A stretch of 64,000 nucleotides of DNA from Chitinophaga chungangae (GTDB taxonomy: Bacteria; Bacteroidota; Bacteroidia; Chitinophagales; Chitinophagaceae): positions 1,174,308 to 1,238,307 of the forward strand of contig NZ_JAGHKP010000003.1 of the NCBI RefSeq assembly GCF_017742215.1. The letters run 5' to 3'. How positions within the stretch are numbered: position 1 is the first letter of the stretch; every line of letters starts with the position of its first letter. The notes under the pieces are model-generated. The model did not search any database. It was not told the DNA's origin and saw nothing but the letters and a program-made list of their open reading frames with translations. Shown piece after piece: positions 55,728-63,268 of this stretch. Made by a program: the position numbers and the translations under genes.

Positions 55728-55755
55728 AATAAAAGGCCAGCCAAACGGCCAGCCT
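55728..55755 (-). terminator. Probable terminator of the SusCD operon
   Basis: AAAGGC-ca-GCC-AAAC-GGC-ca-GCCTTT folds into a stem with an internal loop; on the minus strand TTTTATTTTT follows. It lies 35 bp past the SusD stop. Confidence 0.6.
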
Positions 55756-55789
55756 TTGTTGTCACAATTCACAATCATTATACTAAAAA

Positions 55790-57583
55790 TCAGTTGATCC
55801 AGTCGGGGTTTTGCCGGAGATTGCCGTTCATCTGCACTTCCTGCTCGGGAATGGCCCAGTTGTACAGGTAATCGCCGCTCCAGAGGTACGGTATGTTCAC
55901 GTTGCCCCAGATCTCCTTCACCCCGTTGCCCGTGTAGAATACCGTTTCTTTCCACGTTTTCCAGCGCATTTCATCAAAAAAGCTGATGCCCTCGTTCGGG
56001 AACTCCGCTCTTCTTTCGTGACGGATGCGTTGCCGCATATCGTCCTGCCCGGTTACCGTGGTGGCCGGGGAAGAATTCAGCAGGCCCACGCCGGCGCGTT
56101 GCCTTACTTCATTCACCAGGGGAACCGCTTCGTCGGTTTTGCCCTGTTCGTTGAGCGCTTCAGCCCACATCAGCAGTACGTCCGCAAAACGGATCAGCGG
56201 AAAGTCCGTCGGGCCGGTGGTGCGGTCGGGCAGCTCGGTACTGCCGAGGTATACGAACTTGCGGTGCAGGTAATAGAAAAACGTGCGCGTGTCTGTCGTT
56301 AGGTCCAGTGTAGGCAGGTTTTCGTTGCGGTGCGGCCAGCGGTAGGTGAATACGCGGTCTGCCCCTTCGATCTGCCTGCCGAGATAAGTGGAATACGGCG
56401 TGATCACGTTCGCGGTCAGGCGCGGGTCGCGGCCGGCATACGCCTGTGCGATGCGCTGTTCGTTGCCGTCAGGCAGGTACGCGTCCATGTTCACACCCCT
56501 GTTTTTCGCGGCGGTGATCTCCGCTGCGGTGAGGTTGTTGCGGAAAAAATATACTTCGCGCTGTTTGGCGGGCATGGCGTTGTAGCCGGGTATTACGGCG
56601 TCCCAGTCAAAGGGGCTGCCGTCCGCATTTTCGTACCTGTCCACCAGATCCGGGTGCACCATGTAAGAGTTCCAGCAGGAGCCGAAAGAGGAGCGCGTGC
56701 CGGTGTAGAACTGCGTGGTGGAACCAAAGCCCGGCACGTTGTTGTACTGGATGGAAAAGATCATTTCATCGCTTTGTTCATTGGCCGGGCGGAACAGTTC
56801 GTAATAGTTGCCGAAAAGCGAATAACCCGCTTCGCGCACTTTCTGGAAATCGGCCGCGGCCAGCGCCCATTGTTCCAGGTACATATAGGCTTTGCCGCGA
56901 AGCGCGTAGGCCGCGCCTTTTGTAGCATGACCGAAAGCCGCGTTGCCTTTGGCATATTTCATCGGCAGCTCCGGCTCGTTGATGGCGTCCGTCAGGTCTT
57001 GCACCACCACATCCCAAACCGCCTGCTCGGTCTCGCGGCCGCGGTTCATCTGGTCTACGGGCACCGGTTCGAGATACACGGGCACGCCTTTCCAGAGCTG
57101 GTTCAGGCGCATGTAAAAATATGCGCGCATGAATTTCATTTCCGCCACATAACGGGCCTTTTTCTCGGCCGGCGACGGCGATTTGGCCGGGATGCTCGTA
57201 ATAGCGTCGTTGGCGCGGTGAACGCCTTCGTACAGTTCTTTCCAGACGTTGGTGAACATGCCGTTGCCTGTCGTGGCCGTGCCTTGCAGCAATGCATCGC
57301 CGTCGCGGCCGATGCTGGTCACGAAACGGTCGTACATGTACAGCTCGCGCCCGCTGGCGCCGCCAGTGGCAATGCCCAGCCGCAGCGCATTGTACACGCC
57401 CGCCACGCCAAGGTCGGTAAGATTGTCGGTGGTCCACATGGTAGACGAGGCGATGTTGCCGGGAGGCACCGTATCGAGCAGGTCGCTTTTACAACCGCTC
57501 ATAAAACCCGCGCTGCCCGCGATCGCCAGCGCCAGTATGGATTGTTGGATATATCGTTTGGTGTTGTGTTGTTTGTTCGTCAT
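55790..57583 (-). CDS. SusD/RagB family outer-membrane lipoprotein
   Basis: 597 residues. The signal peptide ends FMSGC with lipidated Cys31. The helical TPR-like frame is typical: YVAEMKFMRAYFYMRLNQLWKGVPVYLEP (SusD signature), RGKAYMYLEQWALAAADFQKV, and the C-terminal RFADVLLMWAEALNEQGKTDEAVPLVNEVRQRAG and RHERRAEFPNEGISFFDEMRWKTW. It is the surface lid that delivers a ligand (glycan or peptide) to the SusC transporter. It lies 10 bp after susC in the same operon. No glycoside hydrolase or other enzyme follows, so the substrate is not evident. Confidence 0.96.
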   Translation of the reverse strand: MTNKQHNTKRYIQQSILALAIAGSAGFMSGCKSDLLDTVPPGNIASSTMWTTDNLTDLGVAGVYNALRLGIATGGASGRELYMYDRFVTSIGRDGDALLQGTATTGNGMFTNVWKELYEGVHRANDAITSIPAKSPSPAEKKARYVAEMKFMRAYFYMRLNQLWKGVPVYLEPVPVDQMNRGRETEQAVWDVVVQDLTDAINEPELPMKYAKGNAAFGHATKGAAYALRGKAYMYLEQWALAAADFQKVREAGYSLFGNYYELFRPANEQSDEMIFSIQYNNVPGFGSTTQFYTGTRSSFGSCWNSYMVHPDLVDRYENADGSPFDWDAVIPGYNAMPAKQREVYFFRNNLTAAEITAAKNRGVNMDAYLPDGNEQRIAQAYAGRDPRLTANVITPYSTYLGRQIEGADRVFTYRWPHRNENLPTLDLTTDTRTFFYYLHRKFVYLGSTELPDRTTGPTDFPLIRFADVLLMWAEALNEQGKTDEAVPLVNEVRQRAGVGLLNSSPATTVTGQDDMRQRIRHERRAEFPNEGISFFDEMRWKTWKETVFYTGNGVKEIWGNVNIPYLWSGDYLYNWAIPEQEVQMNGNLRQNPDWIN

Positions 57584-57593
57584 CGTAGCCGGA

Positions 57594-60500
57594 TTAAAAG
57601 TTAACGTTTAAGCCCAGTGCAAACTGCTGCATGGTCGGGTATCCCACGTTCGGCCCCAGCTCGGGGTCCAGCCCCGGGAAAGCCGTGAAGGTGAGCAGGT
57701 TCTCGCCGGTGAAATACACACGTGCCTTGGCGATCCTGAGCCGGTCTGTCCAGTGTTTCGGCAACGTATACCCGATCTGCGCATTCTTCAGTCTTACCCA
57801 CGCCGCATTGTCCATCCAGAAAATGTTCGCCGTGTTGTTGATGGCGTCGCTGTTGAATTTCAGCCGCGGGAACCTGCCGTTGATGTTGTTCCCCGGATCG
57901 TCCGGATTGTCTGCGTTGTAGTAATAATGATCGTCCGCCATACGCGTGCCGGTGGCATTGCCGTTGCGGAGAATGGAGTTGTTGTAACCTTCAGCGTTCC
58001 AGTAATACTGCATGCCCGCCATGCCGGCCAAGATCATCGATACGTCGATACCTTTGTATTCCGCGGAAAGATTCAAACCGAATATGTACTTCGGTTCCGT
58101 GCGGATGTTGGTCAGGTACTGGTCGAACGTATTGCCGTAAACACCATCTCCGTTCCTGTCTGCAAAAATGAAATCGCCGTAATACAATTGCGCCTTGCCG
58201 ACGGTATTTACCGGCGAAAAGCTGTATCCCGCGGCTTTCATCGCGTTCACCCACGCAAGGTCTTCCGGTGTGCGGATCATGCCTGTTTTGGGGCCGCCGT
58301 TCACGTTCACGCTGCCGTCCGCATTAAAATAAGAGCCGCTGCCGGCATAAAGGTCGCGGAGATAATACGTGTTGATGCCATACCCTTCCACGATACGCTC
58401 CAGCCCGCCGGACGATACGTCGCCGATATTGCTGGTGTACACGTTCTGCCCGGATGCGTTTTTGCTCCAGCCTTCTTTCAGGGTGCCTTTGTATTTGTCT
58501 ACCACGTTGTAGTTGTACGCGAAGTTGGCGCCGACGGAATAATTAAAATCGCCTTTGCTGTCGCGCCAGTTCAGCGCTACTTCCAAACCGCGGTTCAATA
58601 CGGCGGCGGTGTTGCGCGTAGGCCCCGCTTGCGTGCCCGCGGTGAGATAGATCGGCGGAACGGTCAGGATGCCGTCTGTATACCGGCTGTAGTAGTCCAT
58701 TTCCACGGAAAGGCGGTTGTGCAGCATGGTGAAGTCCAGGCCAATGTCCGTCTGCGTGGTTTCTTCCCAGCTCAGGTCAGCATTGGCGTATTTGCTTTGG
58801 GCAAGACCGATCACCGGCGCGTTGTTGAACGCATAGTTCACGCCGCCGTAAGTGGCCAGGTAATCGTAGTTGCCGATGTTGCTGTTCCCCAGCTTGCCCC
58901 ATGAAGCGCGGAGCTTGAGGTTCTGGAAAACGCTGCGGACGTTTTTGAGGAAAGGCTCTTCCGAAATACGCCAGCCCGCGGAGAACGAAGGAAACGTGCC
59001 CCAGCGGTTGTTTTCAGCGAAGCGCGAAACGCCGTCGTATCGCAGGTTCGCCTCCACCAGGTATTTCTCCTTGTACCCGTAATTCACGCGGCCGAAATAC
59101 GAACGGTATGCATAATCGTACCCGCCGCCGCTGGTAGACACCATTTCGGTGGCGGAGCTGAGCGTGGTAACGGTAGCGTCTATCAGCCCGCGTTTGGTGG
59201 CCGCCACGTCTTTGTAATGCAGCGCGTATTCGTTGTAACCCACCAGCGCGCCGATACTGTGATCTTTATTGATCACGGTGTTGTAACGCAGTACATTATC
59301 AAAAGTGAGCTTGTAGTTTTTGTTGTAGTCGAATGAAGTGGAGAGCGTATTCGGCAATCCCGCGGGCACGATGATGATGTTCTTCGAAAAGTCCCAGCGG
59401 TCCAGCGGAATGCTGTAGCTGGTGCCGTCGAACTGGTTCATCTGGTAGTTGATCTTGCTTTCGAGCTGCAGCCCTTTCCAGATGTTGAGTTTGGCGTACA
59501 CGGTGGAGTTGAAGCGGGAAGTCTGTTCGTTGCCGCCATTGCCGTACAGGTGCACCAGCAGGTTGTTCAGCCCTGCCGATTCGTCCGGCGAGGAAGGCGC
59601 GCCGAAACGCCCTTCGTACAAGGGATACAGGCCCGGCGTGGTTTGGCGCAGGAAGTTGAAAGTATTGTCCGTATTGCCTTTCTGGCGGTTCTGCAACAAG
59701 CCGAACGTTTGCGTGCCCAGTGTCAGGAAATCGTTCACTTTTACTTCCAGGTTGGCCCGCAGCTCGTAACGTTTAAGGCCGGTGTTGTACATCAGGCCCG
59801 GGTTGTTGAGGATGCGCGCGGACACGTTGTAGTTCACGTATTCACTGCCGCCCATTACGGACAGGTTATGGTTCTGCACTATATTTTTCTCGAATATCTC
59901 GCTGCCCCAGTCCGTGTTGGGGTAAGCAACGTAGTTGGGAATGCCGAATTCGTTGAGGGCATTGGGATCTTTGTTGGCTTCCGTCCATTTATCGATGCTG
60001 GCCTGCGAGTATACGGGCGACTGGCCCAGGTTTCGCGCCGCTTCGTTGTACAGGTTCATGTGCCGCACATAGTCGGAAACGAAGGTGGGCAGGTTGGTCG
60101 GTTGGGTGATGGACAATACGGAAGAATAACTCATCTGCGGCTTGCCCGTTTTGCCTTTTTTGGTGGTGATGAGAATAACGCCGTTGGCGGCCAGCGAGCC
60201 GTAGATCGATGCGGAGGCGGCGTCTTTGAGGATGGAGATGCTCTCCACGTCGTTCGGGTTCACGGCGTCCATGCTGCCGATGATGCCGTCGATGAGCACG
60301 AGCGCGTCGTTGTTGTTGAGCGTGCCCTGGCCGCGGATGCGGATGCTTGCGCCGTCGCTGCCGGGGCGACCGGAGCTTTGGCGAACGGCTACGCCTGGGG
60401 CGAGCCCTGCGAGGGAAGACGATACGTTGGTCACGGAGCGGTTCTCAATTTCTTTGCTGCTCACTGTAGCAACGGAACCGGTGAGGTCCACTTTTTTTTG

Positions 60501-61169
60501 CGTGCCGTAACCTACCACCACCACTTCGCCGAGGTCGGATTCCGATTCGCTGAGGGTGATGTTCATCGCGCTTTGCCGCACGGGCGTCTCAATCGTCTCG
60601 TACCCGATGTATTTAAGGATGAGCGCGGCGGAGGGGCTTTTCACCTTCAGGGAAAAGTCGCCGTTTTCGTTTGTTACCGTACCGTTGGACGTGCCTTTTT
60701 CCAGCACGCTTACGCCGGGAAGCGCAATGCCTTTTTTATCGGCCACTTTTCCTTTAACAATGATGGAACTGTCTGCCGCAACGGCTGCCGGCAGCTCGGG
60801 AATCTCTACCCTGCGCATCAGCGTAATGGTGCGGTTTTCGATGGAATAAGACAGGCCGCGGTTTTTGAGCACCTCGTTCAACACCAGCTCCACCGGTGCT
60901 TTTTCCACGTCGATGGTTACGGGAGGCGCTCCTTTGAGCAGGCCCGCATCATAAAAGAAGCCGTACCCGGCCTGCTTTTCGATGGCTTTAAACACGCGTG
61001 CAAGCGAGATCTTGCGGGCGGAAAGCGTAACGGTTTGCGAATAGCTGCTGGCGCTTACGTGCAGCGAGCCGATCAGAATGAAGGCTGTTAATAACCTCAT
61101 GGTCCTCCAGAATTTGGTTGACAGGGACAGTGCGCCAATGCGATATTGGCACAAAGCAGTTAAATTCAT
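57594..61169 (-). CDS. SusC/RagA family TonB-dependent transporter with STN signalling domain
   Basis: 1191 residues. After a signal region (to about 45) comes an STN domain (about 48-118, VTLSARKISLARVFKAIEKQ), a carboxypeptidase-D-regulatory-like domain (137-210, VKGKVADKKGIALPGVSVLEKG), the TonB-linked plug (214-335, LGEVVVVGYGTQKK, RGQGTLNNNDALVLIDGI, SAS-type ASIYGSLAANGVILITTKKG) and a beta barrel ending in a C-terminal NF motif. It imports a ligand presented by SusD, driven by TonB. The STN domain signals ligand status to the FecR-type anti-sigma factor encoded upstream. A candidate antisense RNA lies in the 148-bp gap before its start. Confidence 0.97.
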   Translation of the reverse strand: MNLTALCQYRIGALSLSTKFWRTMRLLTAFILIGSLHVSASSYSQTVTLSARKISLARVFKAIEKQAGYGFFYDAGLLKGAPPVTIDVEKAPVELVLNEVLKNRGLSYSIENRTITLMRRVEIPELPAAVAADSSIIVKGKVADKKGIALPGVSVLEKGTSNGTVTNENGDFSLKVKSPSAALILKYIGYETIETPVRQSAMNITLSESESDLGEVVVVGYGTQKKVDLTGSVATVSSKEIENRSVTNVSSSLAGLAPGVAVRQSSGRPGSDGASIRIRGQGTLNNNDALVLIDGIIGSMDAVNPNDVESISILKDAASASIYGSLAANGVILITTKKGKTGKPQMSYSSVLSITQPTNLPTFVSDYVRHMNLYNEAARNLGQSPVYSQASIDKWTEANKDPNALNEFGIPNYVAYPNTDWGSEIFEKNIVQNHNLSVMGGSEYVNYNVSARILNNPGLMYNTGLKRYELRANLEVKVNDFLTLGTQTFGLLQNRQKGNTDNTFNFLRQTTPGLYPLYEGRFGAPSSPDESAGLNNLLVHLYGNGGNEQTSRFNSTVYAKLNIWKGLQLESKINYQMNQFDGTSYSIPLDRWDFSKNIIIVPAGLPNTLSTSFDYNKNYKLTFDNVLRYNTVINKDHSIGALVGYNEYALHYKDVAATKRGLIDATVTTLSSATEMVSTSGGGYDYAYRSYFGRVNYGYKEKYLVEANLRYDGVSRFAENNRWGTFPSFSAGWRISEEPFLKNVRSVFQNLKLRASWGKLGNSNIGNYDYLATYGGVNYAFNNAPVIGLAQSKYANADLSWEETTQTDIGLDFTMLHNRLSVEMDYYSRYTDGILTVPPIYLTAGTQAGPTRNTAAVLNRGLEVALNWRDSKGDFNYSVGANFAYNYNVVDKYKGTLKEGWSKNASGQNVYTSNIGDVSSGGLERIVEGYGINTYYLRDLYAGSGSYFNADGSVNVNGGPKTGMIRTPEDLAWVNAMKAAGYSFSPVNTVGKAQLYYGDFIFADRNGDGVYGNTFDQYLTNIRTEPKYIFGLNLSAEYKGIDVSMILAGMAGMQYYWNAEGYNNSILRNGNATGTRMADDHYYYNADNPDDPGNNINGRFPRLKFNSDAINNTANIFWMDNAAWVRLKNAQIGYTLPKHWTDRLRIAKARVYFTGENLLTFTAFPGLDPELGPNVGYPTMQQFALGLNVNF

Positions 61170-61173
61170 AACT

Positions 61174-61181
61174 TAGATTTG
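61174..61181 (+). promoter_or_regulatory. Plus-strand -7 box antisense to the susC-like leader
   Basis: TAGATTTG fits TAnnTTTG on the strand opposite to the operon, immediately upstream of the susC-like start. A TTG lies 25 bp before it, slightly far for a -33 element. It would drive a short RNA ending at the terminator 61223-61255. Confidence 0.45.
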
Positions 61182-61186
61182 GGAAT

Positions 61187-61256
61187 TTTAAAAATTGTTT
61201 ACCATACAGTTTTTGCCCATTGCCGGCCCCGATGCCAGTCGGGAGCCGGTTTTTTA
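61187..61256 (+). ncRNA. Candidate cis-antisense small RNA in the FecR-SusC gap
   Basis: About 70 nt on the plus strand, in a region where every gene is on the minus strand. It is bounded by a TAnnTTTG box (61174-61181) and a strong intrinsic terminator: CCGGC-CCCGA (61223-61232) pairs with TCGGG (39-43) and GCCGG (45-49) with one bulged A and a 6-nt loop, followed by six T. It is fully complementary to the leader of the susC-like mRNA. DonS-type cis-antisense RNAs that repress glycan-utilisation operons in Bacteroides fragilis have this position. The call rests on signals only. Confidence 0.45.
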
Positions 61257-61317
61257 CGGCCTTTTTCGATCCTGGTGTTTAAGCGATACGTGAAATTTTT
61301 AGGTGAACGAATAATGT

Positions 61318-62460
61318 TTATGGCAGCAATGTGAGCTGTTTTCCTTCGATTTTGGTATGTACCCCGCTCCTTTCCAGTATGCGCAATACCTGCGCAAGCG
61401 TGAGGTCTCGCCGTATCTTTCCTTCAAATGTCTTGTCCGGCACCGCGCCTTCATATTTTACTTCTACATCGTACCAGCGCGAAAGCTGCCGCATCACTTC
61501 CGGCAGCGATGCCTGGTTGAACAGGAACCAGCCTTCTTTCCAGGCCAGCACTTCGGCCGGGTCTATGTCGCTGCTCACCGTAATGCTGCCCGATGCAGCC
61601 TGCCGCGCCTGCTGGCCGGGGCGCAGTTCCTGCGCGGGACTGTCTTTCGCGCCCACTTTCACTTTCCCTTCCAGCAAGGTTGTTTTGATGAATGTCTCAT
61701 CGTCATACGCGCTGATGTTAAAGCTGGTACCCAGCACTTCCACCCTGCTGCGGCCCGCGGCCTCTACCCTGAAGGGTTTCAGGGCGTCGGGCATTACTTC
61801 GAAATATACTTCGCCTGTGATCTCCACTTTCCGCTCCTGCCCGGCGAACGCGGTGGGGTAACGGATAGACGATGCGGCGTTGAGCCAAACGCGCGTGCCG
61901 TCGGGCAATGTAAGCCTGAACTGACCGGCGCGCGGCGTGCTGAGTTTGTTCCAGACCGGCTGGCCGCCATCGTCTTCATAACGCAGCTGGCCGCCGTGCT
62001 GGCTGATGCGGGCGCTCCCCTGCCTGATCACCTGGTTGCCCGCGCTGTCCAGCGTTACAACGGAACCGTCTGCCAGCGTGAGCGTAGCTTTGTTGGCCCC
62101 GGGGGCTATATCTGCAATGGTTGAAATGGTTTGCGGGGAAGAAGTTTCGTTTGTCTTTAACCGGTTATACCCTACCACGGCCATGCCTAATACCGCAGCT
62201 GCGGCGGCAACGGCCCACCAGCGGCGCATCGGGCGCACGGTTGTTTTGGGCGCGGTTATTTGCTGAAAGATGCGGGCGGCGTCCTCTTCTTCCATCCGCG
62301 CGTCCGGCGTAAAACCCGTCCAGGCCTCTTCCAGCGCGGTTTGCAAAGCGGCGTCGTGCCGGGAATCTTCCAGCAATTGCTGCAATTCCTGATTTTCGGC
62401 GGGCGTTTCGGCGCCGTTGAACCATCGCTGAAATAAATATTGAACCCTCGATTCCGACAT
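61318..62460 (-). CDS. FecR-family anti-sigma factor
   Basis: 380 residues from ATG 62460 (MSESRVQYLFQRWFNGAETP); ATG 62490 would add ten residues. A cytoplasmic N-terminus (1-78) binds the sigma factor; one helix at 81-98 (WWAVAAAAAVLGMAVVGY); then the periplasmic FecR domain with ATLTLADGSVVTLDSAG, TLPDGTRVWLNAASSIRYPTAF, ITGEVYFEVMPD and RVEVLGTSFNISAYDD, and a C-terminal STN-like DUF4974 domain (FEGKIRRDLTLAQVLRILERSG). It holds the ECF factor until the SusC-type receptor signals. It lies between sigma and susC in the operon order expected for such systems. Confidence 0.96.
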   Translation of the reverse strand: MSESRVQYLFQRWFNGAETPAENQELQQLLEDSRHDAALQTALEEAWTGFTPDARMEEEDAARIFQQITAPKTTVRPMRRWWAVAAAAAVLGMAVVGYNRLKTNETSSPQTISTIADIAPGANKATLTLADGSVVTLDSAGNQVIRQGSARISQHGGQLRYEDDGGQPVWNKLSTPRAGQFRLTLPDGTRVWLNAASSIRYPTAFAGQERKVEITGEVYFEVMPDALKPFRVEAAGRSRVEVLGTSFNISAYDDETFIKTTLLEGKVKVGAKDSPAQELRPGQQARQAASGSITVSSDIDPAEVLAWKEGWFLFNQASLPEVMRQLSRWYDVEVKYEGAVPDKTFEGKIRRDLTLAQVLRILERSGVHTKIEGKQLTLLP

Positions 62461-62570
62461 AAAAGATGCTTGTTCCTGGTATGATGACAAATAACTTAAC
62501 CGGCAGAAGTAGTCCGCCGAAAAAAAATTTTCCGGGATAGTAAAAAACGAGGTAATGGGATGAAACGGCC

Positions 62571-63176
62571 TCAGGCCAGTTGCAGGCAGGCAGGCCCCAT
62601 GGCGGCGATGATGAGCACGATCGCCGGGTCTTGCCGGATAATGCCTTTCAGCGCCTGTGTGGCCAGGCTCAGGTGTTTTTTAACGGTGCCTTCGGAGATA
62701 TGCAGCCTGCGGGCAATGTCTTCCACGGCCAGCCCCTGCAGGCGATTGAGCGTAAAAACGGCTTTCTGCTGCGGCGGCAGCTGGCTGATGGCTTTGTCCA
62801 GCTGGTCTTGCAGCGCTTTGTAACGCACCATCTGCTCGGTTTCGTGGGAGGCGCCGGTTTGGCCGGCGTAAAGACTGCGGAGAATATCGTTGCGGTAAGC
62901 GCTTTTTTTGGCAAGATTAAAAGCGTGATTGCGCGCCAAAGTAAAAAGATAGGCGTCGAAACTGCGTATTTCAGCGAGCAGGCTGCGGTCTGTCCATATC
63001 TTCAGGAACACGTCCTGTACGATGTCTTTGGCGGTTTCCGGGCTGGCGGTGAGGCGCAGCATATATGCAAACAGCTTGTTCCGGTGCCCGTCGAAAAGGC
63101 AACGGAAAGCCGCTTCGTCTCCGGCAGCCGTTTGCCGCAATACATCCGCTTCTGAATACGATCCGCCGGTGTTCAT
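62571..63176 (-). CDS. ECF-type sigma factor of the SusCD locus (FecI-like)
   Basis: 201 residues from ATG 63176 (MNTGGSYSEADVLRQTAAGD); the frame is open to 63242 but that extension has no family pattern. Region 2: FRCLFDGHRNKLFAYMLRLTASPETAKDIVQDVFLKIW and FDAYLFTLARNHAFNLAKK; region 4: LPPQQKAVFTLNRLQGLAVEDIARRLHISEGTVKKHLSLA. The C-terminal tail (VLIIAAMGPACLQLA) is hydrophobic, as often in Bacteroidota FecI-type factors. It is controlled by the FecR protein encoded 110 bp downstream and should activate the SusCD operon. Confidence 0.95.
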   Translation of the reverse strand: MNTGGSYSEADVLRQTAAGDEAAFRCLFDGHRNKLFAYMLRLTASPETAKDIVQDVFLKIWTDRSLLAEIRSFDAYLFTLARNHAFNLAKKSAYRNDILRSLYAGQTGASHETEQMVRYKALQDQLDKAISQLPPQQKAVFTLNRLQGLAVEDIARRLHISEGTVKKHLSLATQALKGIIRQDPAIVLIIAAMGPACLQLA

Positions 63177-63268
63177 GAATAAAAAGTTAGCATCAGTTAG
63201 TCTGCCCATTCCTGGCCGGGCCTCAGATCCCGCCAACATCAAGTCTTATTTCAGGTATGTGTGTGTGC

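Follow-up and report, generated by a model that had tools for sequence, protein, structure and literature searches.

Background

Does the leader of a SusC-like transporter gene in a Chitinophaga-like genome contain a gene for a small antisense RNA that restrains the transporter, and, if so, how widely are such genes distributed and by what features can they be recognised? Antisense control of PULs has already been described for gut Bacteroides. According to the accessible parts of the sources cited here and below, the DonS family of Bacteroides fragilis consists of cis-antisense RNAs of 78-128 nt, which are divergent from and antisense to the PUL susC homolog (PMC7366714). In B. thetaiotaomicron, 10 and later 32 PUL antisense RNAs were reported opposite susC homologs, some of which anti-correlate with their PUL (PMC7366714, PMC10994844). 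Others correlate positively with it (PMC10994844), which counts against reading the RNA studied here as an antisense brake, and functional characterisation of the class has been called for (PMC10994844). The FopS sRNAs of the Bacteroidaceae, which have many paralogs, act in trans with a shared seed (PMC11697453).

A preliminary description of the DNA studied here, a window of 64,000 nucleotides, proposed that a promoter box and an intrinsic terminator ahead of a SusC-like gene define a cis-antisense RNA. In the present work, we utilise shuffled-sequence controls, a covariance model and a comparison of related loci to examine this proposal. We put at roughly two in three the probability that positions 61169-61258 of the plus strand form a small RNA gene whose product, about 76 nt long, would act in cis as a DonS-like antisense RNA and restrain susC. 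The box, the terminator, their spacing, orientation and place are supported by the comparison of sequences; transcription, pairing in the cell and repression are inferred.

Results and discussion

The locus and its predicted RNA

The genes of the locus all lie on the minus strand, as the preliminary description had stated: an ECF sigma factor gene (62571-63242; Pfam Sigma70_r2 and Sigma70_r4_2), a FecR-type anti-sigma gene (61318-62490; FecR and FecR_C), a gene for a SusC-like TonB-dependent transporter (57594-61169, start codon 61167-61169; Plug, STN and TonB_dep_Rec_b-barrel) and a SusD-like gene (55790-57583; SusD_RagB and SusD-like_3). A terminator-like site directly after the SusD-like gene (55732-55757, minus strand) appears to end the operon. 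The gap between the FecR stop (61318) and the SusC start codon measures 148 nt, and it is here, on the plus strand, that the box TAGATTTG (61174-61181) and the bulged terminator of the preliminary description are indeed present. The terminator (61222-61255) comprises a stem-loop at 61222-61250 with one bulged A and a run of six T at 61250-61255; apparently because of the bulge, it is absent from the list returned by a generic terminator scan of the window. On both strands of the window we counted 31 sites matching TAnnTTTG and, with limits of dG <= -18 and five or more of six T, 16 strong terminators, among which TAGATTTG and this terminator make up the single pair with a box 40-130 nt ahead of a strong terminator. 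The predicted folding energy of the 87-nt stretch is -32.8 kcal/mol; 200 shuffles give -19.5 kcal/mol (sd 2.95; z = -4.5).

The assignment of TAGATTTG as the promoter box has to be revised. Alignment to the covariance model R1, built from 26 related sequences and described below, places the predicted antisense -7 box 5 nt upstream, at 61169-61176 of the plus strand (TAACTTAG), and the TTTG of TAGATTTG falls on GUUUGG, which the RNA family conserves at its 5' end. TAACTTAG has one mismatch to TAnnTTTG, at the seventh base, and its first base pair doubles as that of the susC start codon; TAACTTNG is also found in five other loci (L256, L260, L269, L273 and L128). TAACTTAG is the likely promoter box, overlapping the susC start codon. 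A -7 box at this position means that the RNA, for which about 70 nt had been proposed, would be about 76 nt long (61181-61256, plus strand; positioned by analogy with the family, with its start placed to within a few nt). Its sequence is perfectly complementary to the susC leader immediately before the ribosome site; complementarity over the whole leader is an assumption about where the susC mRNA starts. As a closed ORF of at least 10 aa occurs in just 11 of 47 predicted RNAs of the family, a general small ORF was rejected.

Recurrence in the own genome

The own genome holds 73 FecR_C matches, 13 of which belong to open frames longer than 900 codons and were taken as SusC-type; the remaining 60 are FecR loci, all of which were examined. 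A SusC frame lies at most 400 nt away in 55 of the 60, and the other five were left out. With a terminator defined by dG <= -9 and at least five of six T, antisense terminators are present in 28 of the 41 FecR-SusC gaps of at least 80 nt and in none of the 14 shorter gaps, where the shuffle expectation over all 55 gaps is 4.7. Sense-strand terminators were found in four of the same 41 gaps, on which count a sense-strand terminator or attenuator was rejected as a general feature. Control tandem gaps, which were taken from 400 kb of this genome and span 80-300 nt between ORFs called by mechanical rules, show the reverse arrangement, with antisense terminators in 6 of 57 and sense terminators in 24 of 57.

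Two further observations concern these gaps. Those of L116 and L132 carry an additional sense-strand terminator-like hairpin before susC, a possible case of attenuation. Upstream of the hairpin, the words CCACGT, CGTTATG and ACCAAAA are enriched (for example in L131, L147 and L161) and perhaps represent the ECF promoter of susC.

A covariance model for the predicted RNA gene

R1 was built from 26 aligned sequences of the genus with the window's own locus excluded; of 47 related RNAs, 21 did not enter the alignment because their hairpins were untidy or atypical. Changes on both sides occur in nine of the ten pairs of its terminator stem and 96.9% of the cells pair, a covariation count that rests on sequences picked for a stable hairpin. 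Though trained without it, R1 finds the locus in the window, matching promoter box, RNA and terminator at 61161-61258 (plus strand) with 27.8 bits (E = 0.0017, R1 E-values being rough throughout); the runner-up scores 10.5 bits, and the best match in 400 kb of control DNA reaches 20 bits (E = 0.29).

Searched through the whole own genome at E <= 1, R1 gives 23 matches, 22 of which sit antisense at FecR-SusC junctions (five of these had been used to build the model); the remaining match is the weakest of all. The window site is not among these matches, for which 150 of 1560 candidates were scored. R1 alone adds four own-genome loci (L122, L142, L144 and L152) to those of the terminator test, so that at least one of the two tests detects the signature in 32 of 55 loci, whereas 23 lack it in both. 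Among the 53 titled loci outside its training set, R1 finds 24 at E <= 0.026, all with the match directly ahead of susC and antisense to it; some are near-duplicates, such as L065 and L069, and the matches include Niastella, Pollutibacter, Pinibacter, Niabella, Mucilaginibacter and Sphingobacterium. Rfam returned two matches in the gap region of the window, far below threshold (E 1.2 and 2.2), and none at the gathering score in 11 related loci.

Recurrence in the genus and the phylum

Antisense terminators recur in two relatives of the genus, G022 and G014, where 30 FecR loci per genome were sampled: gaps of at least 80 nt contain them in 14 of 22 cases (1.3 expected) in one genome and in 14 of 19 (2.4 expected) in the other, with 3 of the 60 loci lacking SusC and 4 with gaps of at most 10 nt unscored. 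The best FecR match from each of 30 genus genomes, a set that contains some near-duplicates, yields 21 of 29 (2.8 expected), or 20 of 28 without the window's own locus. R1 matches at E <= 0.01 occur in all 38 genus genomes searched, drawn from 79, at 6 to 47 per genome. All of 20 genus sites from the strong end of the R1 matches, none of them in the model, lie between FecR and SusC; all 20 also have the exact box, a result that is partly built in because R1 includes the promoter box. Taken together, the recurrence, orientation and spacing, and the recovery by R1 of a locus it had not seen, strongly support the cis-antisense RNA gene that the preliminary description placed in the SusC-like leader.

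Across the phylum, with strict filters and 12 candidates scored per genome, R1 matches at E <= 0.001 in 27 of 296 genomes (own included) and 17 of 140 genera. Of the matches of this search, 28 loci outside the own genome were checked; they comprise 25 with both FecR and SusC, two with SusC only and one with neither. The two with SusC only, L376 and L382, have box and hairpin before susC without a recognised FecR upstream, so it may be susC, and not FecR, that the signature accompanies. L377 is an orphan box and hairpin with no susC recognised alongside, possibly the remnant of a lost gene. The Bacteroidaceae, sampled as a positive control for the signature, proved mostly negative: R1 matches 3 of 56 loci at E <= 0.0005; antisense terminators occur in 2 of 15 gaps of at least 80 nt against 1.0 expected (from 34 loci, of which six had no SusC frame and four had gaps of at most 10 nt), and under laxer limits in 4 of 9 against 2.65 expected (10 of 19 unscored, L337 excluded beforehand).

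A predicted promoter box on the start codon of susC

The susC starts that are accompanied by an antisense terminator tend to read, on the sense strand, CCAAAC, about 4 nt, CAAA, two free bases, T and ATG. Read on the opposite strand, CAAAnnTATG gives TAnnTTTG, which serves the primary Bacteroides sigma factor as its -7 box (PMC7366714); T-1 and A+1 of the start supply the TA. In a test in which boxes were not selected, CAAAnnTATG occupies 31 of the 57 susC starts that have an antisense terminator and 3 of the 51 that lack one; it is found at 3 of 311 control gene starts, at none of 52 susD starts and at none of 55 fecR starts. Conservation falls on C-7 (0.72), A-6 to A-4 and T-1 (0.88), as a promoter box requires, and position -3 is free at the signature susC starts (A 0.39, T 0.35). 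Since -3 is a key base for translation in Flavobacterium (PMC6847099), translation alone does not account for CAAAnnTATG. No -33 element was seen in the base frequencies of the signature loci.

The predicted RNAs start near -12 of susC, typically with GUUUGG, and in 35 related loci, an unfiltered set, they have a median length of 93 nt (range 62-144). In the SusC proteins, the stretch before the hydrophobic core has a median of 24.5 residues where box and terminator are both present (44 loci) and of 15 where neither is (56 loci), loci with terminator or box alone being left out of this comparison; it is as if the longer stretch before the signal-peptide core housed the antisense promoter. In the window, the DNA of the first 23 susC codons (61101-61169, minus strand), which in the translation precede a second Met and the signal-peptide core, would house the upstream part of that promoter. 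With a promoter box and a start codon sharing bases, the DNA would be put to two uses at once, which is unusual and of which the literature consulted gives no earlier description; that literature also contained no work on antisense or small RNAs in Chitinophaga.

The nearest relatives of the window's locus

Four loci, L256, L260, L269 and L273, were picked from the genus set because their leaders resemble that of the window. Their FecR proteins are 52-56% identical to the window's in the aligned part and their SusC N-termini 43-45%, and in SusC likeness they rank 7, 8, 12 and 13 of 86. The 95 nt before susC (61170-61264) are 69-71% identical in the four, where the rest of the gap reaches 40-48%, susC nt 1-300 59-62% and nt 301-900 47-49%; leader identity to the window in 82 other loci has a median of 39% and a maximum of 52%. 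The preliminary description had looked to co-conservation of box and hairpin in related FecR-SusC gaps. R1 matches all four loci, TAGATTTG itself is not kept in any of them, and the box 5 nt upstream is kept as TAACTTGG. The T run of L256 is weak (3 of 6).

The closest SusC relatives are others, L032-L035, with 52-53% identity over nearly the whole protein and 53-54% in a comparison of the SusC body. R1 matches none of these four, their leaders are 42-46% identical to the window's, and an antisense terminator, a lax one, is found among them only in L034. The RNA gene therefore does not simply track the SusC lineage. Loss of box and hairpin from close relatives that keep the operon had been named at the outset as evidence against the RNA gene; L032-L035 go part of the way towards it. 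The window's leader and its SusC body have different nearest relatives, a hint of shuffling between leaders and transporter bodies. Within the signature set, the site in the window ranks as a weak member.

Alternative explanations

The sequence features described above could also be read on the sense strand, with CAAAnnTATG as a translation-initiation signal and the hairpin as an element of the susC leader RNA, and no antisense RNA at all. Bacteroidota do use adenines upstream of the start codon, at -3, -6, -12 and -13 (PMC6847099), adenine is frequent in the signature loci at -15 to -13 and -6 to -4, and by eye the sequences of L032 and L033 contain an inverted repeat that resembles a hairpin but has no T run after it. 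The fixed positions, however, are C-7 and T-1, neither among the reported adenine positions, and -3 is free; a general initiation signal would also sit poorly with the near-absence of CAAAnnTATG from other starts (0 of 52 susD, 0 of 55 fecR, 3 of 311 others), and the T run follows the stem on the antisense strand in 28 cases versus 4 on the sense strand. We regard this explanation as improbable. Somewhat less so, though still unlikely, is a spurious antisense promoter followed by an insulating terminator that guards fecR and sigma, the RNA itself being inert. In its favour, 73% of the antisense starts of B. thetaiotaomicron belong to short, weakly expressed and maybe spurious transcripts (PMC7366714). 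Yet the box lies on the start codon in 31 of the 57 terminator-bearing loci and in 3 of 51 others, a distribution that noise would not produce, nor would noise hold the predicted length near 93 nt while gap length varies widely; and in the four loci with similar leaders, picked for that likeness, the RNA stretch is 69-71% identical to the window's versus 47-49% for susC nt 301-900.

That the RNAs might instead be trans-acting paralogs, which through a common GUUUGG 5' end regulate one another's susC mRNAs, is suggested by their resemblance to the description of FopS (PMC11697453), in the shared 5' sequence as well as in the layout of 5' part and terminator. The predicted duplex energies argue for pairing in cis. 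The 5' ends of 14 own-genome RNAs are predicted to pair with their cognate leaders at a mean of -20.4 kcal/mol, against -7.73 for the 378 non-cognate pairs and -7.68 for shuffled leaders. The 5' end of the window's RNA is predicted to pair with its own leader at -18.0 kcal/mol and at a mean of -5.7 with 54 other leaders, likewise no better than with shuffled ones. These energies contain no signal of cross-pairing in trans among the paralogous RNAs, which was rejected, and the loci tried have no Rfam match; we consider the trans-acting explanation very improbable.

Comparison with known antisense RNAs

A cis-antisense RNA gene, the reading we prefer, has its closest likeness in DonS: the short RNA predicted at 61181-61256 (plus strand) is antisense to and divergent from susC on the minus strand. 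The predicted lengths are about 76 nt in the window and 62-144 nt (median 93) in 35 related loci; those of DonS RNAs are 78-128 nt. The comparison is with DonS as known by description, from which the present RNAs differ in their host, a Chitinophaga-like genus and its relatives, and may differ in the merging of the predicted box with the susC start codon and in a signature made up of the 5' GUUUGG and a terminator about 90 nt from the box. The B. thetaiotaomicron RNAs were found by RNA-seq, with no sequence signature given in the accessible parts of the sources, whereas here the signature comes from sequence alone. With FopS, as far as its description is available, the RNAs would have in common many paralogs, a single-stranded 5' part, a terminator hairpin and, by prediction, action at the susC start region; a shared 5' seed that pairs in trans is not indicated by the predicted energies, and predicted pairing is cis-specific for the 14 RNAs and for that of the window.

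Proposed mechanism and significance

We propose that RNA polymerase with the primary sigma factor would bind the TAnnTTTG-type box lying over the susC start codon, start transcription about 12 nt upstream of susC, head away from the gene and stop at the terminator, giving a product of about 76 nt in the window and about 90 nt in most relatives. The RNA, present at a basal level, would pair with its own susC leader and so lower the translation or stability of the susC mRNA while the ECF-sigma/FecR switch is off; once the switch makes enough mRNA, the RNA would be overcome, and an induction threshold would result.

More broadly, we think it about an even bet that these RNAs form a Bacteroidota-wide family in which antisense promoter and susC start are one DNA element, the N-terminal extension of SusC partly houses the promoter, and each signature-bearing ECF/FecR glycan transporter has its own antisense brake, up to several dozen per genome. 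The recurrence at more than 20 transporter loci of the own genome and in every genus genome searched suggests an RNA brake on glycan uptake well beyond gut Bacteroides. A searchable signature, present in other families too, would make a general regulatory layer of what have been individual cases. It also gives exact predicted start sites and would let sequence reveal which transporters carry the brake.
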